From Bacteroidota bacterium (lineage in GTDB: Bacteria > Bacteroidota > Ignavibacteria > UBA10030 > SZUA-254): a stretch of 45,700 bases of DNA. Positions 21-18,043 of the stretch are shown here, piece by piece (positions within the stretch are counted from its first letter, which is position 1; the number at the start of each line of letters is the position of its first letter). Location of the stretch: assembly GCA_030019075.1 (NCBI GenBank), contig JASEHD010000008.1:1-45700 (forward strand), in the 5' to 3' direction. Below the pieces are notes generated by a model, which was not told where the DNA came from, ran no database searches, and saw only the letters and a program-made list of their open reading frames with translations. Position numbers and translations under genes: made by a program.

Positions 21-2003
21 ATGGGCCTCCACTTAAGACCAGGACATAAAATCGAGGAAGGTAAAAAAGGCTGGGTACCAACTGGTTACGAAGATTTCTT
101 AACAGACATCAAAGTTGGTGCAATTGACTTAGGGTATTGGGGAGAGAAGGTGGACAAATCCATTAGTTCACCTGACGGACATTCACCAATATATAGCATC
201 CCTAATCCTTGGGCAGCTGCTTATCTGTTCAACTTTGTGCTTAGCGATAATAGCCACCCACTAGCGGAACCGCTCATCGTGCAATTACTCAATTTGCTTT
301 CTGACTATACCCTATACGGCTCTGCTGAATTGCGAGAATTAAATAGACCGAGCGAAGGCGACCCTTTTTACAAGCTTTGGGCAATGGCTCCAGATTTCAT
401 AAGGTACGGCGACAGCATCTACTTCTTTAGTAACACCGCAACCGGAGAAATCTTAGGAGGTTTGTCAAAAACCAGTTTAGCGTGGACTTCCCAGCAATAT
501 GTTGCAAAAGAAGAGAAAAACAACCTGCTTGCTAACGAAGCATTGACTTCATTCCTACACCAAGCCCATCAAGCAAAGAAACCGGATTTCACCGAAGACG
601 CGTTCAATACGTTTTGGCAACATGCCTCCCTTGTGCAGATCTTAAAAACAGTCCCTCCATCAATAGAATTCCAAGCTCAACCTGCGTCCCCCGAAAGCTG
701 GCTTAAGAGACTCCCACCAATGGACAGGAAGAGTGAATTCTATGATGATTTGTCCAGATCGTTCGTATTCGACGAAGACAGCCTAACCAGAGATCGTCAA
801 ATCTTTCTCAATCAGGCTAATCCGCCTGGATTCATTGATGAGATAAAGAGAAAGAAGAGCGATGTAGAACTACCGATGAATTCAGGTGCATATAGATGGG
901 TAATACTGGATTCACTCTTAGAACCCTGTTGGATCAATCAGAACAAAGTTGAGAGCTCTCTGTCTGAAGGAATTCATTCTATGGAGAAAGGTTTTCTTTA
1001 TCCTTTCAAACCGGGATACCTACAGCAATTTCATCTAAAGCTGAAAGATTTAAAGATCCTTGGCAAGATGAACATAGGCAATCAAAATGCCCGAGCTGAC
1101 ATCCAGTGGAATGAAAAACGTAAGGTAAGCCTGAATACACAGTTCGTCGGCGACACAAGAAGTTTGGCGATATGGCCTCCATTCCAATCAAACTTTGTTG
1201 ACAACTACGTCGTGGAGTATGATGTTGTCGGGATCGAGAAGCTGGAAAAACTGGAATTCTTTGATGAATCAGGCAGCCAAATCACTTGCAGTGGTCCCGC
1301 ACACCACATAGGACAGAACTTTAGGATTTACAAGTTGTCAAAAATGTTTCCTCGGTACATCCGCGTCCTGGGCAAATACAAGGGTAATTTATTCGGTGGT
1401 TTTCTTGAGTTCTATGAAAGAAGGCCGACTAACAAACAAGGTAATATCACTATAGGCTTTGATTTCGGAACGAGCCACACTTCCATTGCGTACAGTAAGG
1501 ATGGCACGCGTTCAATCATGAACTTCCAGAAGGCAAAGCCTATTCTCGTAGCCGATCAACAATCTCTCGTTGGCATGTTATACAACTTTCTTCCGCCCGG
1601 CTTGACGGATGCTAAGCCTACTAGGAAAGAAGATTGGGAAAAGCGAATACCTTGGCAGCCATTTCAGACTCAATGGATGGATGTTTCGAATGGCCAGATC
1701 AATCTAGATGCGTTGAAGTTTATCGAAGACGGAACGATTCCGTTTCTTCACTACGCAGAAGAAACCCGCCTTAACCCAATCATTGAAAATTTGAAATGGG
1801 GGGCCCCAGCTAACATCAGCATTTATCGCACGCTTTTTCTCAAACAATTGCTAATGATGGCTGTTGCAGAAGCAGAAGCAATCGGATTTGAGAACTTAAA
1901 GATTCGCTGGTCCTTTCCGAAAGCATTCTCACCAACGCAGTACCAGAATCTAAAAAGCTTTTGGACAAGCATTTTAAGTGACTTACGTTTGACGCAACAA
2001 TAA
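21..2003 (+). CDS. N-terminal part of an Hsp70/actin-fold ATPase with a ~470-aa N-terminal extension of unknown function
   Basis: 660-aa ORF preceded by AAGGAG SD (~10-15). Contains a phosphate-1-like motif 'ITIGFDFGTSHTSIAYSKDG' near aa 470-490; ends before phosphate-2. Confidence 0.8.
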   Translation: MGLHLRPGHKIEEGKKGWVPTGYEDFLTDIKVGAIDLGYWGEKVDKSISSPDGHSPIYSIPNPWAAAYLFNFVLSDNSHPLAEPLIVQLLNLLSDYTLYGSAELRELNRPSEGDPFYKLWAMAPDFIRYGDSIYFFSNTATGEILGGLSKTSLAWTSQQYVAKEEKNNLLANEALTSFLHQAHQAKKPDFTEDAFNTFWQHASLVQILKTVPPSIEFQAQPASPESWLKRLPPMDRKSEFYDDLSRSFVFDEDSLTRDRQIFLNQANPPGFIDEIKRKKSDVELPMNSGAYRWVILDSLLEPCWINQNKVESSLSEGIHSMEKGFLYPFKPGYLQQFHLKLKDLKILGKMNIGNQNARADIQWNEKRKVSLNTQFVGDTRSLAIWPPFQSNFVDNYVVEYDVVGIEKLEKLEFFDESGSQITCSGPAHHIGQNFRIYKLSKMFPRYIRVLGKYKGNLFGGFLEFYERRPTNKQGNITIGFDFGTSHTSIAYSKDGTRSIMNFQKAKPILVADQQSLVGMLYNFLPPGLTDAKPTRKEDWEKRIPWQPFQTQWMDVSNGQINLDALKFIEDGTIPFLHYAEETRLNPIIENLKWGAPANISIYRTLFLKQLLMMAVAEAEAIGFENLKIRWSFPKAFSPTQYQNLKSFWTSILSDLRLTQQ

Positions 2004-2017
2004 AGGAGAATTGAATC

Positions 2018-3016
2018 ATGGTGATAGAAAAAATTGGTGATGGAATCACAGAAGCACAAGCTTCGGCTGTTTACTTCTTAGAAGACACAAATTTTAATAC
2101 CATGGGACATGCCGTAGTTGTGGATATCGGAGGTGGTACATCAGATATCTCGCGCTGGTACGACAGAAATATCCAGTGGGAAGATAGTGTGAAGTTTGCT
2201 GGGAGTGATCTAGTTGCAGTTCTTGATGATCTCCTACATTTCATCGGTATCGCCAACCCCGAACCTTATGCATATGACATTGCAATGAGAAGATGGCCAC
2301 AGATTCATAAGAACTGGAATGGCAAGATGGAGAATTTTCAGTCCAGGCCTGAGAGTATGAATACTCTTCAAACCATTGGTTTGTTTTATGCAGGCATCTC
2401 TTACTATGTGGGGATGCATTTGAAAAGAGAAAATCTTGTTGAACCTTTAAGGCACCTTGCCTTTGCAGGAAACGGAATACGCTTCTTGGAGATAATCACG
2501 TTCGGTGACAATCTGTCGGAACATACTCCGGCCCTTGTCGACTGGATCGGTCTTTTCCGAGAAATGCTAAAAGCTGGACATAATATTTCTGGAAATTACG
2601 ATACCTTGTTTACGTTCTCGCCTAACCCAAAACTCGAAGTTGTCTATGGATTGGTCTCGAACAAACTTGGAGACTACGCTGCAGGGAAAGATACAACAAG
2701 AAAAATGTTTGGACTTGATGTTACCTGGGAAGGTAATCAGTACCAGTCTCACGAATGGAATCCAGAAGTAAAGGCAACAGATTTCAAAGAGTCCGACATA
2801 GATTTCAAGGGCTTCGTTGAATTCATTAAGAAATACAAGACGATAGCACCCGCATATTTTAAAAATTGGCAATTGAATTCTCTTCCTGAAGAATTCAATA
2901 GGGATATGAGAACTAGCCTCTTTAGCGCTCTTGAAAAAAGAGGAAATGAAGAACTGGCGAGCCCCTTGTTCCTCGAAGCACTAAAAGCATATATGAAGTG
3001 TCAATACAAACGGTGA
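2018..3016 (+). CDS. C-terminal part of the Hsp70/actin-fold ATPase (phosphate-2 and adenosine-motif half)
   Basis: 332-aa ORF; 'TEAQASAVYFLED', phosphate-2-like 'AVVVDIGGGTSDISRW', adenosine-like 'LAFAGNGIRFLEII'. SD AAAGGAG at 2002-2008, 9 nt before the ATG, overlapping the upstream TAA. Confidence 0.8.
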   Translation: MVIEKIGDGITEAQASAVYFLEDTNFNTMGHAVVVDIGGGTSDISRWYDRNIQWEDSVKFAGSDLVAVLDDLLHFIGIANPEPYAYDIAMRRWPQIHKNWNGKMENFQSRPESMNTLQTIGLFYAGISYYVGMHLKRENLVEPLRHLAFAGNGIRFLEIITFGDNLSEHTPALVDWIGLFREMLKAGHNISGNYDTLFTFSPNPKLEVVYGLVSNKLGDYAAGKDTTRKMFGLDVTWEGNQYQSHEWNPEVKATDFKESDIDFKGFVEFIKKYKTIAPAYFKNWQLNSLPEEFNRDMRTSLFSALEKRGNEELASPLFLEALKAYMKCQYKR

Positions 3017-3021
3017 AGTCT

Positions 3022-3975
3022 ATGTCAAAATTCCGGAAAATATTGCTCTGCTGTCTTTGTTTGTGGCTTATCACAGATTGTTTGCAGGCAAATCAAGTCG
3101 GAGAAAGGAAATCGAAGTCCCAAAAACAAGGCGCAACGCGCGAGGACAAAAAGATTGCTATCCCTGATGAGAATCAACCCACATCGTCAGAAACTAGTAT
3201 CAAAGACAATTTTCAATCGCTTCATTACTCTCTTCAACAACAGGACAAAAACATTGAGAGAATGTCGGATCAAATAAGATCCTCTCAGGATGATCTTCGA
3301 ATTCTATATTACGTCTCAATTGGCTTGACCACCCTAATAATTCTTCTACTCAGCTTTCTCATCTTTATCTTGATAAGAGGGAAATTCCATAAGTTGTCTG
3401 GCGAATTGACATACCTGAAGAATATTCTTGGCTGTGATAAGAAGTTCAACTTCGAAGCATCGCGATTCCTTCCTCAACTTCGTGAGACTTTAAGGAACCT
3501 TGACTCGGATATCAAGCGAATCAAGGAAGCAGTTTACAGTATCAACGACAAAATTGCGGAATCGGCACGGCCGGGCCACCGAGAGAACTTTCCAAGTAGA
3601 TTAGTTACTCTATCTAATGAGCTCTCCCTTTCCCGGTCAAACACTTTCGAAGAACTAAAACCACAAGAGGAATCTCAAATCGTACACGTCAAGTATATCG
3701 GTGAATTTGCATCAAGACAAACCTTTTCACGAGATACGATTCCAGAATACTTTTATATCGCAAAACAAGGTGGCAATTGGCGATTGTACGTTGAGGAAAA
3801 TATCCTAGCCAAGCGCCCTAGCCAGGAATACGAAGTTCTTCTAACTAAATTCTTCGAGATCACCAAGGTCCCCGATCCGCAACGCTATGAGTTATCAGAA
3901 AGTGCACTCATCGACTGGGACGAAAGCGAAGGCAAGGGATACTTCAAAGCAAAGGGGAAAATAAGACAGGTATAG
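3022..3975 (+). CDS. Membrane-anchored coiled-coil protein (signal peptide + central TM), unknown function
   Basis: ORF 2998-3975; the ATG at 3022 gives an N-terminal hydrophobic signal (MSKFRKILLCCLCLWLITDC), then a TM segment 'ILYYVSIGLTTLIILLLSFLIFILI'. Start is 5 nt after the ORF2 stop. Confidence 0.65.
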   Translation: MSKFRKILLCCLCLWLITDCLQANQVGERKSKSQKQGATREDKKIAIPDENQPTSSETSIKDNFQSLHYSLQQQDKNIERMSDQIRSSQDDLRILYYVSIGLTTLIILLLSFLIFILIRGKFHKLSGELTYLKNILGCDKKFNFEASRFLPQLRETLRNLDSDIKRIKEAVYSINDKIAESARPGHRENFPSRLVTLSNELSLSRSNTFEELKPQEESQIVHVKYIGEFASRQTFSRDTIPEYFYIAKQGGNWRLYVEENILAKRPSQEYEVLLTKFFEITKVPDPQRYELSESALIDWDESEGKGYFKAKGKIRQV

Positions 3976-3976
3976 T

Positions 3977-5365
3977 ATGCCTATAGACCAACAAATCCTA
4001 ACCGAGCCGGGCGTGCATCTTGCTATTGTCGCACTAATAATTGAGGTTACGATCGCAACGTCAATCTCGAGACAGTATGACAAGGCTCGTAATTCTCTTC
4101 TTTCTTCTCAACACTTCCAATCCCTATTACAGAAAGCCATTAATGATGCTAGCGGAACAGTCCATGATAATGTGATGGTCACCGAACTGATCGATCTAAT
4201 GGGGACCCAGCGGTCAACAGAGAGCATCAGAATCGTTTTGAGAAAAAATTTCATTTCACCTAATGAAAGAATCAGGCACCTCGCTAACATGGGTCCAGCG
4301 GTTGGACTTTTCTTTACATTCACAGGGATGTTTCTAACAGTGCTTAAAATATCCACAATCCCGTTTGGAACAAACGTGGACATTCTAAGCCAGAACTTCT
4401 CCAATCTCTTCCCTGTATTTATTGGAGGGGCGGTTGGAATCGCAGTTTATGCATATGGCATGGTGCTCTTCAATAGAATACAGACAGCACAATACGCTGT
4501 TGAGAATGACTTACTAAAGGCTTTTCTGGTTTTTGAATCGACACATGAGCCACCCGAACCAAGAACAGTCGAAGATGCATATAAGAGGTTACTTAAGCCC
4601 CTGAAACTGCTTTTGAATCGGCTAGAGTTGATAAACACTGAATTCGAGAAATTGTCAAATCAAACTGATAGCCTTATAACCAAGTTTTCCGAAAAGACTA
4701 ACAACTTCATAGAGAAGATTGATAACAAGACATCCGAACTCACGTCTAAATTCAAATCTAACTTTGATGCCTTGGAGACTGGTTCAAAAAGCATCGCGGG
4801 CTTGAATTCTATTTTCACAGAGTCTGCCAAACAATGGAAAGAGTCTTCTGCTGCCTTATCCAGCCTCTCGCAAACTCTGTTACAAACTGAGGATCGGCTT
4901 CAAAAACTAGCAACGATTTCAGAAACCGTTTCAGATCTGGTAAAGAGTTTAGACTCCAACACAAATAATATTAACAAACTTGTCAATTGGGTTGAACAGG
5001 ATCGGCTAGAGTTTAGCAGCCTAAAAGACGAAATGAAAAAATTCGGTGACACAGTTCCGGCTTTCACAAACACAGTTGAGCAATTCAGGTTAGGCTTGAA
5101 CCCCCTCAAAGAGATTTTTGACTCCAAATTGTCCGAAATCAAAAACAAGCTGGAAGAGATATTAAACTCACCGAGCCCACCTATCGACTTTCAGAAGGAT
5201 GTCACAAAATATCTTAAGGAGATCAACATCTCGCTGGACAAGATTTCCAAAGACGGACAGGCCCGAAAGGTACCAACCCTCGGGAATCCGGTAGCTAATC
5301 CGAATAGACTCACGATTCGAAGAACCTTCCTACAAAAGGTAAAGGCTCTCTTTTCCCGAACTTAG
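3977..5365 (+). CDS. MotA/TolQ/ExbB-fold proton-channel-like protein with long coiled-coil tail (ZorA-like)
   Basis: 462 aa; TM1 'GVHLAIVALIIEVTIA', TM2 'NMGPAVGLFFTFTGMFLTVLKI', TM3 'LFPVFIGGAVGIAVYAYGMVLF'; then ~250 aa of charged helical/coiled-coil sequence. 1 nt after the upstream stop. Confidence 0.75.
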   Translation: MPIDQQILTEPGVHLAIVALIIEVTIATSISRQYDKARNSLLSSQHFQSLLQKAINDASGTVHDNVMVTELIDLMGTQRSTESIRIVLRKNFISPNERIRHLANMGPAVGLFFTFTGMFLTVLKISTIPFGTNVDILSQNFSNLFPVFIGGAVGIAVYAYGMVLFNRIQTAQYAVENDLLKAFLVFESTHEPPEPRTVEDAYKRLLKPLKLLLNRLELINTEFEKLSNQTDSLITKFSEKTNNFIEKIDNKTSELTSKFKSNFDALETGSKSIAGLNSIFTESAKQWKESSAALSSLSQTLLQTEDRLQKLATISETVSDLVKSLDSNTNNINKLVNWVEQDRLEFSSLKDEMKKFGDTVPAFTNTVEQFRLGLNPLKEIFDSKLSEIKNKLEEILNSPSPPIDFQKDVTKYLKEINISLDKISKDGQARKVPTLGNPVANPNRLTIRRTFLQKVKALFSRT

Positions 5366-5373
5366 TTAAGCTC

Positions 5374-5991
5374 ATGAATGGAGAGAATCAGACATCTGGT
5401 TTTTGGTTTGCCTATATCGAAACTCTCACGGGCTTAGCGGTAATATTTCTAATTCTCTTCGTTGCTGCTGCAAATCGAGAAAGGGCAATCAACGAACAAC
5501 AAGAGGGCTTAGTAAAAAGCTGGCAAACGGCGAAAGAGAAACTATTTGATCTTCAGGCTGCACCTGTTCCAGATCCAAAAATGGGAGGTATGCGAATTAC
5601 GCTCGCTGATAGTCTTATTTTCGCCCTGAAGTCTTCCAAACTTAGCGGTGAGGGTGAGAATAAGATCATCGAAATTTCTAGAGTCTTAGTCGGATTCTAC
5701 AAGAGCAATCCATCCTTCAAAACTGCGATGAGAATTAAGGTTGGCGGTCATACAGATCCCATCGGAGGAGATACCATCAATTTTCCGTTGTCATATCAAC
5801 GAGCCTACAACGTAATGAGCCTGATAAACAGTCAATTCACCTCAGAACGGTTGGATGTTGAAACCATACCAATTGCATACGGCTCGAAGTATCCTTTGCC
5901 AGGTCACGACTCCGAAATCGAACCAAAAAATAGAAGAATCACAATTGTAGTGGAGTTCCTATCAACGGAATTATTGATCGGTTTAAAATAA
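5374..5991 (+). CDS. MotB/ZorB-like stator: N-terminal TM plus OmpA-family peptidoglycan-binding domain
   Basis: TM 'GFWFAYIETLTGLAVIFLILFVAAANRER' and OmpA-like 'IKVGGHTDPIGGDTINFPLSYQRAYNVM...PIAYGSKYPLPGHDSEIEPKNRRITI'. Confidence 0.85.
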   Translation: MNGENQTSGFWFAYIETLTGLAVIFLILFVAAANRERAINEQQEGLVKSWQTAKEKLFDLQAAPVPDPKMGGMRITLADSLIFALKSSKLSGEGENKIIEISRVLVGFYKSNPSFKTAMRIKVGGHTDPIGGDTINFPLSYQRAYNVMSLINSQFTSERLDVETIPIAYGSKYPLPGHDSEIEPKNRRITIVVEFLSTELLIGLK

Positions 5992-6212: not shown

Positions 6213-6262
6213 AGACTTCCGATTTTTACTTGTGAAATGTCGCAGTCAAAAATCGGAAGTCT
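6213..6262. repeat. Inverted repeat: 15-bp perfect arms, 20-nt loop
   Basis: agacttccgattttt (6213-6227) / aaaaatcggaagtct (6248-6262), exact reverse complements. Confidence 0.9.
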
Positions 6263-14447: not shown

Positions 14448-16172
14448 ATGAAAACATTTACAATAAAGATTGACCCTTTAACCGGAGAAGAATATTTTGA
14501 AGTTTATCTTCGCGGAAGGCAAATATTAAACGACCCACTTTTAAACAAGGCATCTGCATTCACTTTAGAAGAAAGAATGAATCTTGGCTTAGTCGGACTT
14601 TTACGATACGGTATTTAGGATATTGAAAATCAAGTGAACAGAAGTTTGGCTATGTATAGAAGAAAAACTGACGAACTCGAGCGATATATATTTCTTCAAG
14701 GATTGCTTGACCGGAATGAAATCCTTTTTTATCGTCTTCTGTGCGAACACATCATCGAAATGCTGCCCATCGTTTATACTCCTACAGTAGGACAAGCTTG
14801 TTTAAGGTTAAGCCACATAACGAAAAGATACCGTGGAATTTATATAAGTCCCTACAACGTCGCGAATATCGATAACATTTTTCAAAATAATGTGTCACTC
14901 CCGGATGTAAACTTGATAGTAGTAACCGACGGCGAAAGAATTCTTGGTTTAGGCGATTTGGGATCAGACGGCATGGGTATTCCAGTTGGTAAAATCAACC
15001 TCTACGTTGCCGCCGGCGGATTACATCCGGCTTGCTGTCTGCCAATTTGCCTTGACGTAGGAACGAACAACGAGCGGCTATTAAACGACCCGCTTTATCT
15101 CGGTTATCGCAATAAGAGATTAGGTGGACCTGAGTATTTCGATTTCATCGAGCGATTTATAATAGGTGTTAAACGAAATTTCCCGAATGCACTTTTACAG
15201 TGTGAAGATTTCGCAAAACATAAAGCATTTAAGTTACTCGAAAGATATCGAGACAGAATACTTTCTTTCAACGACGATATTCAGGGAACCGGTGCCGTGT
15301 CTTTAGCAGCTTTGACAACGGCGATGAAAATTAAAAAACAGCGCTTTAGCGACCAACGCTTTGTTGTTGTAGGCATGGGACAAGCCGGCTCGGGAATATG
15401 CGACAACATACTTGCAATGCTAAAAGAAGAATGGCTGACTGATAAAGAAGCGAGTAGTAAAATTTTTCCTTTCGACGTACCCGGATTATTGATGGAAGAT
15501 ACTCCAAACCTGGAAGCCTCGCAAAAACCTTTTGCAAAAAAACACTCGGCTGTTGCAAAATGGAAATTAGATTAACCAAACACTATAACGTTGATGGATG
15601 TTATAAGAAACACAAAAGCCACAGTACTGATAGGTGTAACGGCTACAAAAGGACTCTTCAACGAAGAGATTTTAAAGCAGATGGCAAATAATGATGAGCG
15701 TCCTGTAATATTTGCTTTATCGAATCCAACCTCAAAAACCGAATGCACTCCAGAAGAAGTTGCTATAGCAACGAATGGCAGAGGTATGGTTGCAACCGTA
15801 AGTCCTTTCCCGGAATTCGAGTATAATGGAAAAACATTTATCACATCTCAATGTAATAACATGTTTGTATTCCCCGGTGTTGGTTTAGGCGCGCTTGTAA
15901 GTAAATCTTCGAAGGTTACAAATAACATGTTCCTGAAAGCCAGTAAGGCTTTGAGTACTCTGGTAACCGAAGAGGAACGTAAACAGGGTATGTTGTTACC
16001 CAACCTGAACGATATAAGAAATGTTTCCTTACACGTTGCAAAAGCAGTCGCGATAGAGGCGCGTGAGGCAGGATTAGGAAGACTGTTAAACGATGACGAG
16101 CTTGAGCGGATCATTAAAAAGGCACAGTGGGAACCCCATTACTATCCATTCAGGCCAGGCAAAGCCGGGTAA
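14448..16172 (+). pseudogene. NAD-dependent long-form malic enzyme, interrupted by two in-frame stops (TAG at 14616, TAA at 15573)
   Basis: Same frame throughout: 'RGRQILNDPLLNKASAFTLEERMNLGLVGLLRYGI*DIENQVNRSLAMYRRKTDELERYIFLQGLLDRNEILFYRLL...EMLPIVYTPTVGQAC...VPGLLMEDTPNLEASQKPFAKKHSAVAKWKLD*PNTITLMDVIRNTKATVLIGVTATKGLFNEEIL'. Confidence 0.9.
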
Positions 16173-16333: not shown

Positions 16334-17227
16334 ATGAAACTCATACTCTATACTTTTTTAATCGGTATAATTAATATTTTACCTTTAGGAATATACAGAC
16401 ATAATGTTCCTATCGAAAAATATATGCAGTTAGCAAGAGAATCTAAATTTGACTGTGTTGGGAAAATTTTATATTACGAAAATGATAACTTAATTGAGGT
16501 TGGAAGTTGCGTTCTAATCGACAGTCAGTATGTATTGTCTGCAGCTCATTGTTTTATCGGTGAAAATACTAAGGATACCACAATTGATTATGATGGTAAA
16601 AAAATGAAGACGTACATTGTAACCGGTCAATATAAAAAAAGAACTGAGAAGTTTGTTTTCGAATTTAATAATAAAAGGTTCACCTCAAAAAGGATTGTTG
16701 TTCATGAAAAATACATGGCGGAGAACACTCACGATATTGCCTTGATAGAACTGAACGAACCTGTTAAAAACATATCATTTCCATTATTAAATAAAGAATT
16801 TAACGAGAAAGGAGACTCTGTTACCGGTGTTGGATTCGGAGTTTCTGGGCCTGCTAATAGACCTGAATTAGTAGATTCCTATGGAATCAAATTGGCAGGG
16901 ATGAATATTATTGATTCAATAGGCGGTTACATAGTAAATGGGCAATCAGCACTTCTTTTTACTGATTTCGATTCACCAGATAAACTTGAAGATTGTAATA
17001 AGATGGGCGATTCAGCCCCATTACCTTTTGAGTATTTTACCGGTGGCGGTGATAGTGGGGGAGGATTGTTCAGAGAACAAAATGAAACATTACAATTGAT
17101 AGGAATTTGTGTTGGCTCTCCAAAGGATATAAATATTTTGCTCAAGCATGGTTATTATTGCCAAATTTCATGTTGGACAAGAATATCCGTTTTTCGGGAA
17201 TGGATTACTCAAAACCAGAATAAATAA
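16334..17227 (+). CDS. Secreted trypsin-like (S1 family) serine protease
   Basis: Signal peptide; catalytic triad motifs 'VLSAAHCF', 'HDIALIEL', 'GGGDSGGGLF'. Confidence 0.88.
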   Translation: MKLILYTFLIGIINILPLGIYRHNVPIEKYMQLARESKFDCVGKILYYENDNLIEVGSCVLIDSQYVLSAAHCFIGENTKDTTIDYDGKKMKTYIVTGQYKKRTEKFVFEFNNKRFTSKRIVVHEKYMAENTHDIALIELNEPVKNISFPLLNKEFNEKGDSVTGVGFGVSGPANRPELVDSYGIKLAGMNIIDSIGGYIVNGQSALLFTDFDSPDKLEDCNKMGDSAPLPFEYFTGGGDSGGGLFREQNETLQLIGICVGSPKDINILLKHGYYCQISCWTRISVFREWITQNQNK

Positions 17228-17284
17228 ATAAGAAGAACATTTGAACGGAATTGAAAAACGTGGGACGAACTTAAGGTCGTGATT

Positions 17285-18043
17285 ATGCCCAACGAATACA
17301 TACAATCCATTATAACAAAGCATAAGCTTCCAGTCGGTGCTGAAACGAAGGCTCATCAAGCCGCACAGCAACTCACGCAGATTATTCGTGTCTGGGCGGG
17401 TGAAGTTTTAGAAAACATCTGCCCCATCGGCTCTTATGTTAAGGGAACGAGTGTAACTGGGTCAAGCGAGATTGATTTGCTTGTTTCTCTAAATGTTCAT
17501 ACCTGCGGAACGATAAAAGATTTATCGGATAATTTATTTTCATATCTCCAGTCAAATAATTTTGCTCCACAGCGAAAGCAATACTCGATCCGGCTCATGT
17601 TTTTAAATACCTCGGTGGAACTGTTTCTATCGCGATCAATTACCGCAAAAAGCACAAACGATGTTTTGTACTGCAGCATAACAAACACTTGTCTTGAAAC
17701 CAAAACTCAATCTCATACAGAATTAATTTTGATGTCAAACCGGATCGAAGAAATTCAAGCGATAAAAATTTGGCGCAACCTCACCTGTTTGAAGTTCCCT
17801 ACTTTGTATTTAGAGTTGACTGTTCTTAACGCTCTTTTCAACAGGAAGAAAAACAGGTTGGAGAAAAATTTTCTGAACGTTATGGAGTATTTGATGGAAG
17901 GATTTCTTGAAGATACGGTTACCGACCCGGCAAATCCCAAAAACATTATTTCGGATTTATTGACAGCCGAAGAAAAGAAGGCAGTTGCGGCGGCGGCTAA
18001 AATTGCCCGAAACCAGGCGGATTGGAGCAATATTCTCTGGTAG
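17285..18043 (+). CDS. Nucleotidyltransferase-fold protein (CCA-adding/OAS/CD-NTase-like)
   Basis: 'PIGSYVKGTSVTGSSEIDLLVSLNVH' matches GSxxxGT...[DE]hD of the NTase superfamily; helical C-terminus. Start ATG 17285 (or GTG 17279). Confidence 0.7.
   Translation: MPNEYIQSIITKHKLPVGAETKAHQAAQQLTQIIRVWAGEVLENICPIGSYVKGTSVTGSSEIDLLVSLNVHTCGTIKDLSDNLFSYLQSNNFAPQRKQYSIRLMFLNTSVELFLSRSITAKSTNDVLYCSITNTCLETKTQSHTELILMSNRIEEIQAIKIWRNLTCLKFPTLYLELTVLNALFNRKKNRLEKNFLNVMEYLMEGFLEDTVTDPANPKNIISDLLTAEEKKAVAAAAKIARNQADWSNILW

Follow-up and report, generated by a model that had tools for sequence, protein, structure and literature searches.

The window analysed here comprises the first 45,700 nucleotides (nt) of contig C215 (JASEHD010000008.1) in the draft assembly GCA_030019075.1 of a Bacteroidota bacterium (3.18 Mb, 226 contigs, 98% complete). 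At its left end, five open reading frames (ORFs) follow each other on the forward strand between positions 21 and 5991 with gaps of +14, −19, +1 and +8 nt, as an earlier sequence-only reading of this DNA had described. ORF1 (21–2003, 660 amino acids, aa) and ORF2 (2018–3016, 332 aa) encode the first and second parts of a predicted ATPase of the Hsp70/actin fold, ORF3 (2998–3975, 325 aa) a coiled-coil protein with a signal peptide and a transmembrane (TM) helix, ORF4 (3977–5365, 462 aa) a putative channel subunit of the MotA/TolQ/ExbB/ZorA kind and ORF5 (5374–5991, 205 aa) a MotB/ZorB-like stator subunit. A Shine-Dalgarno-like AAGGAG lies ahead of ORF1 on the same strand (1–20), at the edge of the contig. 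As window position 1 is base 1 of the contig, the 5' part of the operon is cut off, and 21–5991 is the 3' part of a larger operon whose remainder lies beyond the contig end. The sequence-only reading had suspected more genes upstream, and relatives of the operon indeed carry three.

The complete operon was found in other Bacteroidota, where its gene order is VWA (vWA-type lipoprotein), TM3 (small protein with three TM helices), TUB (tubulin/FtsZ-like GTPase), HSP (Hsp70-like ATPase), CC (signal-peptide/TM coiled-coil protein), MOTA (MotA-like channel) and MOTB (MotB-like OmpA stator). We fetched 80 loci with a tubulin profile from Hymenobacter, Pontibacter, Rufibacter, Adhaeribacter, Cesiribacter and their kin, which are related and do not represent 80 independent events. 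All seven genes occur on one strand and in this order in 55 of the 80 loci, and most of the other loci are short of just one called gene. The locus in the window is very probably the same operon. This reveals a hallmark partner that the sequence-only reading did not see, namely the tubulin/FtsZ-like GTPase, whose gene precedes the Hsp70-like gene or is fused to it, in addition to the vWA-type lipoprotein and the 3-TM protein. The separate GTPases are ~480–550 aa long, and two tubulin motifs (GGTG[SA]R, FGGTGA) are conserved in the relatives. One of them passes the cut-off of Tubulin_2 (PF13809; 29.5 bits, cut-off 27) and most members fall short; apart from this match, the ATPase, tubulin and vWA-type proteins matched no Pfam, NCBIfam or PADLOC family above cut-off. 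VWA is the weakest label among the operon genes: it was assigned by gene position, a MIDAS-like ExSGS motif occurs in 37 of 79 proteins, and no Pfam vWA match was obtained.

ORF1 and ORF2 jointly appear to form one Hsp70/actin-fold ATPase of ~1000 aa. The phosphate 1 motif (DFGTSHT) is located in ORF1 and the phosphate 2 (DIGGGTSD) and adenosine (AFAGNG) motifs in ORF2, in the order seen in the Hsp70/actin superfamily. All three are conserved in the relatives, where the phosphate motifs read DFGT[ST]NT and DIGGGTTD. A hidden Markov model (HMM) built without the window matched ORF1 with an E-value of 3.4e-9 and ORF2 with 1.5e-17, and a blastp comparison of ORF1+ORF2 with the homologue in locus L006 gave 1e-14, which bears out the two-ORF Hsp70/actin-like ATPase of the sequence-only reading. 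In ORF1, an N-terminal region of ~470 aa is followed by DFGTSHT and by NLKW and SFP blocks. This large region matched no known family. Its blocks GG.S...L, LLEP and KGFL.P.K are common to the relatives, which suggests that it belongs to the ATPase family rather than being a random fusion. In a search of the PDB, the significant matches of the ATPase profile were MreB chains near phosphate 2, and FtsA and Hsp70 chains scored more weakly. In the family library scans, Hsp70/DnaK profiles gave nothing above chance for ORF1 or ORF2; the protein is a predicted ATPase of the actin/Hsp70 fold, not a DnaK chaperone. We also considered and rejected SrfB (PF07520), which reached an E-value of 0.074 only, around phosphate 2, and a match in genome G109, which was located in a 5-TM protein. 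Most low-score matches in the wider survey were short, lay at the phosphate 2 motif and were treated as FtsA/MreB-type.

A single TM helix near the N-terminus of ORF5 carries an acidic residue at the place of the ion site (Y14-I-E16-T-L-T), and the C-terminal part is an OmpA peptidoglycan-binding domain. ORF5 matched PADLOC ZorB1 with an E-value of 1.7e-16 over residues 3–200, which is nearly the entire protein, so that its description as a ZorB/MotB-like OmpA stator in the sequence-only reading stands. The top chains in the PDB profile search (8vvn_B and 8qyd_F) were both ZorB-type, and ORF5 is nearer to ZorB than to flagellar MotB. Against the NCBIfam ZorB1 model it scored 27.9 bits (cut-off 400). 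ORF5 also matched the Hymenobacter MotB-like family (8e-6 with an HMM built without the window, 1.6e-7 with hhalign). The TM acid is D in all 64 MotB-like proteins of relatives with a parsable motif and E16 in the window.

The MotA/ZorA-like nature of ORF4 was upheld in its architecture and not in its sequence scores. ORF4 has three predicted TM helices (near residues 12, 105 and 147) in the layout of ExbB, TolQ and ZorA, a cytosolic coiled-coil tail of ~250 aa, and the sequence GLFFTFTG, which fits the motif GLxxTFxG. Pfam MotA_ExbB did not match ORF4, shuffled ORF4 equalled the real score against a MotA HMM, and ZorA profile matches were restricted to the coiled coil. We therefore call ORF4 MotA-like by its TM layout, its GLxxTFxG motif, its tail, its adjacency to ORF5 and its place in the operon. 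Its positional equivalent in Hymenobacter matched PF01618 with 2.6e-4, slightly under the cut-off, and 3 of 11 MotA-like members matched this family at E ≤ 0.01. Taken as a pair, ORF4 and ORF5 are likely to be a stator. ORF3 consists of a signal peptide, a periplasmic stretch, one TM helix (~108–126), a coiled coil and a cytosolic C-terminal domain, and we regard it as the positional equivalent of CC, the fifth gene of the operon, by place and topology only.

We also surveyed whether the ATPase and the stator are linked elsewhere, a check that the sequence-only reading had suggested. In a sample of 299 evenly drawn Bacteroidota genomes, the tubulin profile was positive in nine. The HSP gene adjoins the tubulin gene in seven of these and is fused to it in the other two, which belong to another family and encode fused proteins of 1615 and 1681 aa with the tubulin part N-terminal and the Hsp70-like part C-terminal. 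The fusion was present in 8 of 60 relatives of one fusion-bearing genome. When a profile of seven fused proteins was compared with the profiles of the separate families, the E-values were 4e-11 (tubulin) and 1e-11 (Hsp70). Downstream of the fusion, a multi-TM coiled-coil protein is followed by a single-TM protein with WPA...DLMT, a MotA/MotB-like pair, in six of seven loci; the seventh (L195) reaches its contig end within the MotA-like gene. The fusion loci are L065 (548–5395), L066 (10097–15142) and L192–L196, and no OmpA domain was recognised in the MotB-like proteins scanned (L065 and L177). The presence of these pairs in fusion loci means that the stator linkage occurs in at least three settings, namely in the Hymenobacteraceae with their kin, in the fused family and in the window. 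Together with the seven-gene order described above, this shows that the ATPase-stator linkage is conserved.

The tubulin gene was found in 61 of 61 Hymenobacter genomes sampled, and some flanking genes, upstream neighbours among them, are common to up to 33 of the 80 loci. This suggests that the operon is a core, mainly vertically inherited locus in Hymenobacter. Outside the Hymenobacteraceae it is sporadic. A first scan of the genome contigs with ORF1 gave no match, and the genome survey revealed no other genome in the window's order with a convincing ATPase match. The sporadic spread and the missing matches within the order suggest horizontal gain, for which the slightly raised G+C content of the operon (0.424, window average 0.399) is weak support at best; the operon was probably acquired horizontally by the window's genome. 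No relatives of ORF1 were found on plasmids or in phages. The Hymenobacter ATPase had no relatives in phages and one on NC_022111.1, a 1.77-Mb replicon of the human oral Prevotella sp. oral taxon 299, where the order is VWA-TM3-TUB-HSP-CC (L198, 8352–15980). Two IMG/VR viral contigs (L178, 5001–6200; L179, 5001–6200) encode a tubulin-like relative with 34% identity.

There is about an even chance, in our view, that the five ORFs are the 3' portion of the locus for a conserved machine that spans the envelope and combines an ion-driven motor with an actin/Hsp70 ATPase and, in relatives, a tubulin GTPase. By analogy with Zorya, the MotA/MotB-like pair would be a 5:2-type motor that draws on ion flow and has its anchor in the peptidoglycan. 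The Hsp70/actin-like ATPase and the tubulin-like GTPase would form an assembly in the cytosol, to which motion or the state of the envelope would be relayed by the tail of the MotA-like protein and by the TM coiled-coil protein, the latter serving as anchor or adaptor. The lipoprotein would be the periplasmic part, reporting on or acting in the periplasm. A more specific version, with both NTPases coupled to a rotary stator of the ZorAB kind and with ion flow controlling, or being controlled by, their dynamic assembly, is offered tentatively and has less than an even chance. The output may be envelope maintenance or remodelling rather than the killing of phage-infected cells. We favour an envelope role, as defence systems are not usually core loci of an entire genus, and place it a little below the even mark.

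Several observations weigh against such a machine in general or in this genome. No recognised stator was found in the tubulin/Hsp70 loci of four sampled genomes (G251, G016, G185 and G290) and of Prevotella oral taxon 299, which suggests that the motor is an optional module. The sequences of ORF3 and ORF4 did not significantly match those of their positional equivalents, with scores within those of shuffled controls; the AlphaFold models of ORF1 and ORF4 were too poor for use, with predicted local distance difference test (pLDDT) values of 38–39; and we found no experiment on any operon member in the open-access literature. The VWA, TM3 and tubulin genes are not in the window, where the operon is cut by the contig edge, and the tubulin profile found nothing at E ≤ 1 in any of the 226 contigs of the assembly. 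Finally, complete ATPase homologues are single proteins of 1135–1301 aa, unlike the ATPase in the window, which is split in two. ORF1 stops at TAA 2001–2003, a TGA in the ORF2 frame immediately precedes the ORF2 ATG, and no open frame joins ORF1 and ORF2 in any of the three frames.

The split and the missing upstream genes could mean that the window contains a decaying remnant, and the operon in this genome may be impaired. The absence of tubulin from the assembly and of a joining frame agree with decay, as does an in-frame stop nearby: the malic-enzyme gene (14634–16172) is divided by a TAA at ~15573 into two ORFs in the same frame, through decay or assembly error. However, the five ORFs are otherwise intact and tightly spaced, the ORF2 start is preceded by its own ribosome-binding site (AAAGGAGAA), the contig end accounts for the missing genes, and a 226-contig draft can hold base errors. 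The split may be genuine, with a ribosome-binding site of its own, or it may reflect early decay or an assembly error; the latter two are retained because the malic-enzyme gene has an in-frame stop as well. On balance, we consider a remnant unlikely.

A Zorya-like anti-phage system, in which the stator senses phage envelope damage and its tail activates the Hsp70 and tubulin NTPases as effectors (e.g., by trapping or multimerising), is equally unlikely. The closeness of ORF5 to ZorB rather than to flagellar MotB would fit such a system, as would the patchy distribution outside the Hymenobacteraceae, the existence of a TerD-bearing variant and the prediction of conflict systems that include tubulin, HSP70 and vWA proteins (PMC7159879). 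Against it stands the tubulin marker in every Hymenobacter genome sampled, and no nuclease, helicase or other Zorya effector was seen. In agreement with the sequence-only reading, ZorC/D, ZorE and ZorF/G were absent from the scanned window ORFs and from the scanned operon genes of relatives. PADLOC was also silent on the core genes of one relative, and the operon in the window adjoins metabolic genes. A perfect inverted repeat with 15-nt arms and a 20-nt loop (6213–6262, forward strand) separates it from a gene for a TonB-dependent receptor; the repeat is a possible transcript end, although it is A+T-rich and does not look like a canonical intrinsic terminator. The receptor gene is followed by genes for a DUF4249-like protein, a beta-eliminating lyase, an aminotransferase, phosphoenolpyruvate carboxykinase and malic enzyme. 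The nearest PADLOC match among the downstream genes lies ~10 kb from the operon, beyond these metabolic genes. At 16334–18043, a trypsin-like peptidase (PF00089, 5e-14; LmuA-like in PADLOC) precedes a CD-NTase-like 'Cyclase' (PDLC00803, 2.9e-58), a possible small defence locus. The sequence-only reading had named defence or envelope remodelling as possible functions; the metabolic neighbours, the genus-wide presence and the lack of an effector speak against the first, and the second was the better half of the guess.

The variants of the operon bring in a Ter-related envelope-stress sensor, in which the NTPases would be a switch and different envelope anchors, the stator among them, could stand in for each other. 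In L019 (987–13107) and L054 (4131–14916), which are two of the kinds of loci without a recognised stator, an OmpA-domain TM protein and TerD proteins take the place of MotAB after the VWA/TM3/tubulin/Hsp70 core, and in L064 (2–8455) the tubulin/Hsp70 core is accompanied by an OmpA-type TM protein and a similar downstream set. However, stator-bearing and Ter-bearing forms do not overlap in the loci seen, and we recognised neither a regulator nor a kinase in the operon. We judge a Ter-related sensor somewhat less probable again than an anti-phage system. A motor for gliding or type IX secretion, of the type of GldLM/PorLM, is highly improbable despite the Bacteroidota host and a weak GldL match of ORF4, as this match is confined to the coiled coil (E 0.07), the second subunit is of the OmpA/ZorB type and the operon contains no type IX secretion system (T9SS) genes.

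Ion-driven 5:2 motors power flagella, Ton/Tol transport, gliding, type IX secretion and Zorya immunity. If the envelope-spanning machine proposed above is real, a further class of these motors, driving or gated by actin- and tubulin-fold NTPases, would link membrane energy to cytoskeleton-type proteins. It would also provide a job for the FtsZl1-type tubulin relatives, which were predicted in 2010 and for which we found no test in the open-access literature searched. As the operon is universal in the sampled members of the culturable genus Hymenobacter, a gene-deletion test is feasible now.

The operon shares features with several known systems. Like Zorya ZorA-ZorB (PDB 8qyd/8qyy, 8vvn), it encodes a protein with a TM ion-site acid and an OmpA domain (ORF5) next to a predicted 3-TM partner whose long coiled-coil tail would lie in the cytosol. 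The binding of ZorB to peptidoglycan, the tail of ZorA and the flow of ions each matter in Zorya, where ZorAB brings the effector to the membrane (PMC11890865). The operon differs from Zorya: its stator scores far under the NCBIfam ZorA and ZorB cut-offs, this stator is accompanied by NTPases of the Hsp70-like and tubulin-like kinds along with a vWA-type lipoprotein and membrane proteins, and the operon is universal in one genus; judged by its gene content, it does not seem to be Zorya. As in flagellar MotAB, TolQR, ExbBD and GldLM, a putative channel is paired with a single-TM partner with a conserved acid and probable peptidoglycan anchoring. However, sequence matches to these motors are weak or absent, the coiled-coil tail is long, and flagellar, Tol, Ton or T9SS partners are missing. 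A 2025 study of MotAB evolution (PMC12505986) does not mention tubulin or Hsp70.

The GTPase side of the operon resembles the FtsZl1/vWA/OmpA operons that Makarova and Koonin (2010, PMC2875224) predicted to function in membrane remodelling, as a diverged tubulin-superfamily GTPase adjoins vWA-type, OmpA-domain and TM proteins in the relatives. It differs from those operons in having an Hsp70/actin-like ATPase and a MotA-MotB-like pair as well (PMC2875224 does not mention MotA, MotB or Hsp70), and its separate tubulin is about half as long as the FtsZl1 prototype, with most members under the Tubulin_2 cut-off. Conflict systems centred on GTPases were predicted by Kaur et al. (2020, PMC7159879), who place tubulin and HSP70 in separate themes, alongside vWA, and mention neither MotB nor proton channels. 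Like their DO-GTPase/GAP1-N2 systems, the operon brings together tubulin, vWA and Hsp70-family proteins close to the membrane. Their systems are not described as having a stator, and the operon genes scanned from L005/L006, L016, L017 and L019 had no Pfam match to DO-GTPase or GAP1. We found no functionally defined homologous operon in curated libraries or the open-access literature, and no description of the ATPase-GTPase-stator combination in the open-access full text searched. The closest published kin, the FtsZl1/vWA/OmpA and DO-GTPase/tubulin/HSP70 systems, are predictions only. Thus, single modules and a looser operon concept were known, whereas the combination of ATPase, GTPase and stator appears to be new.

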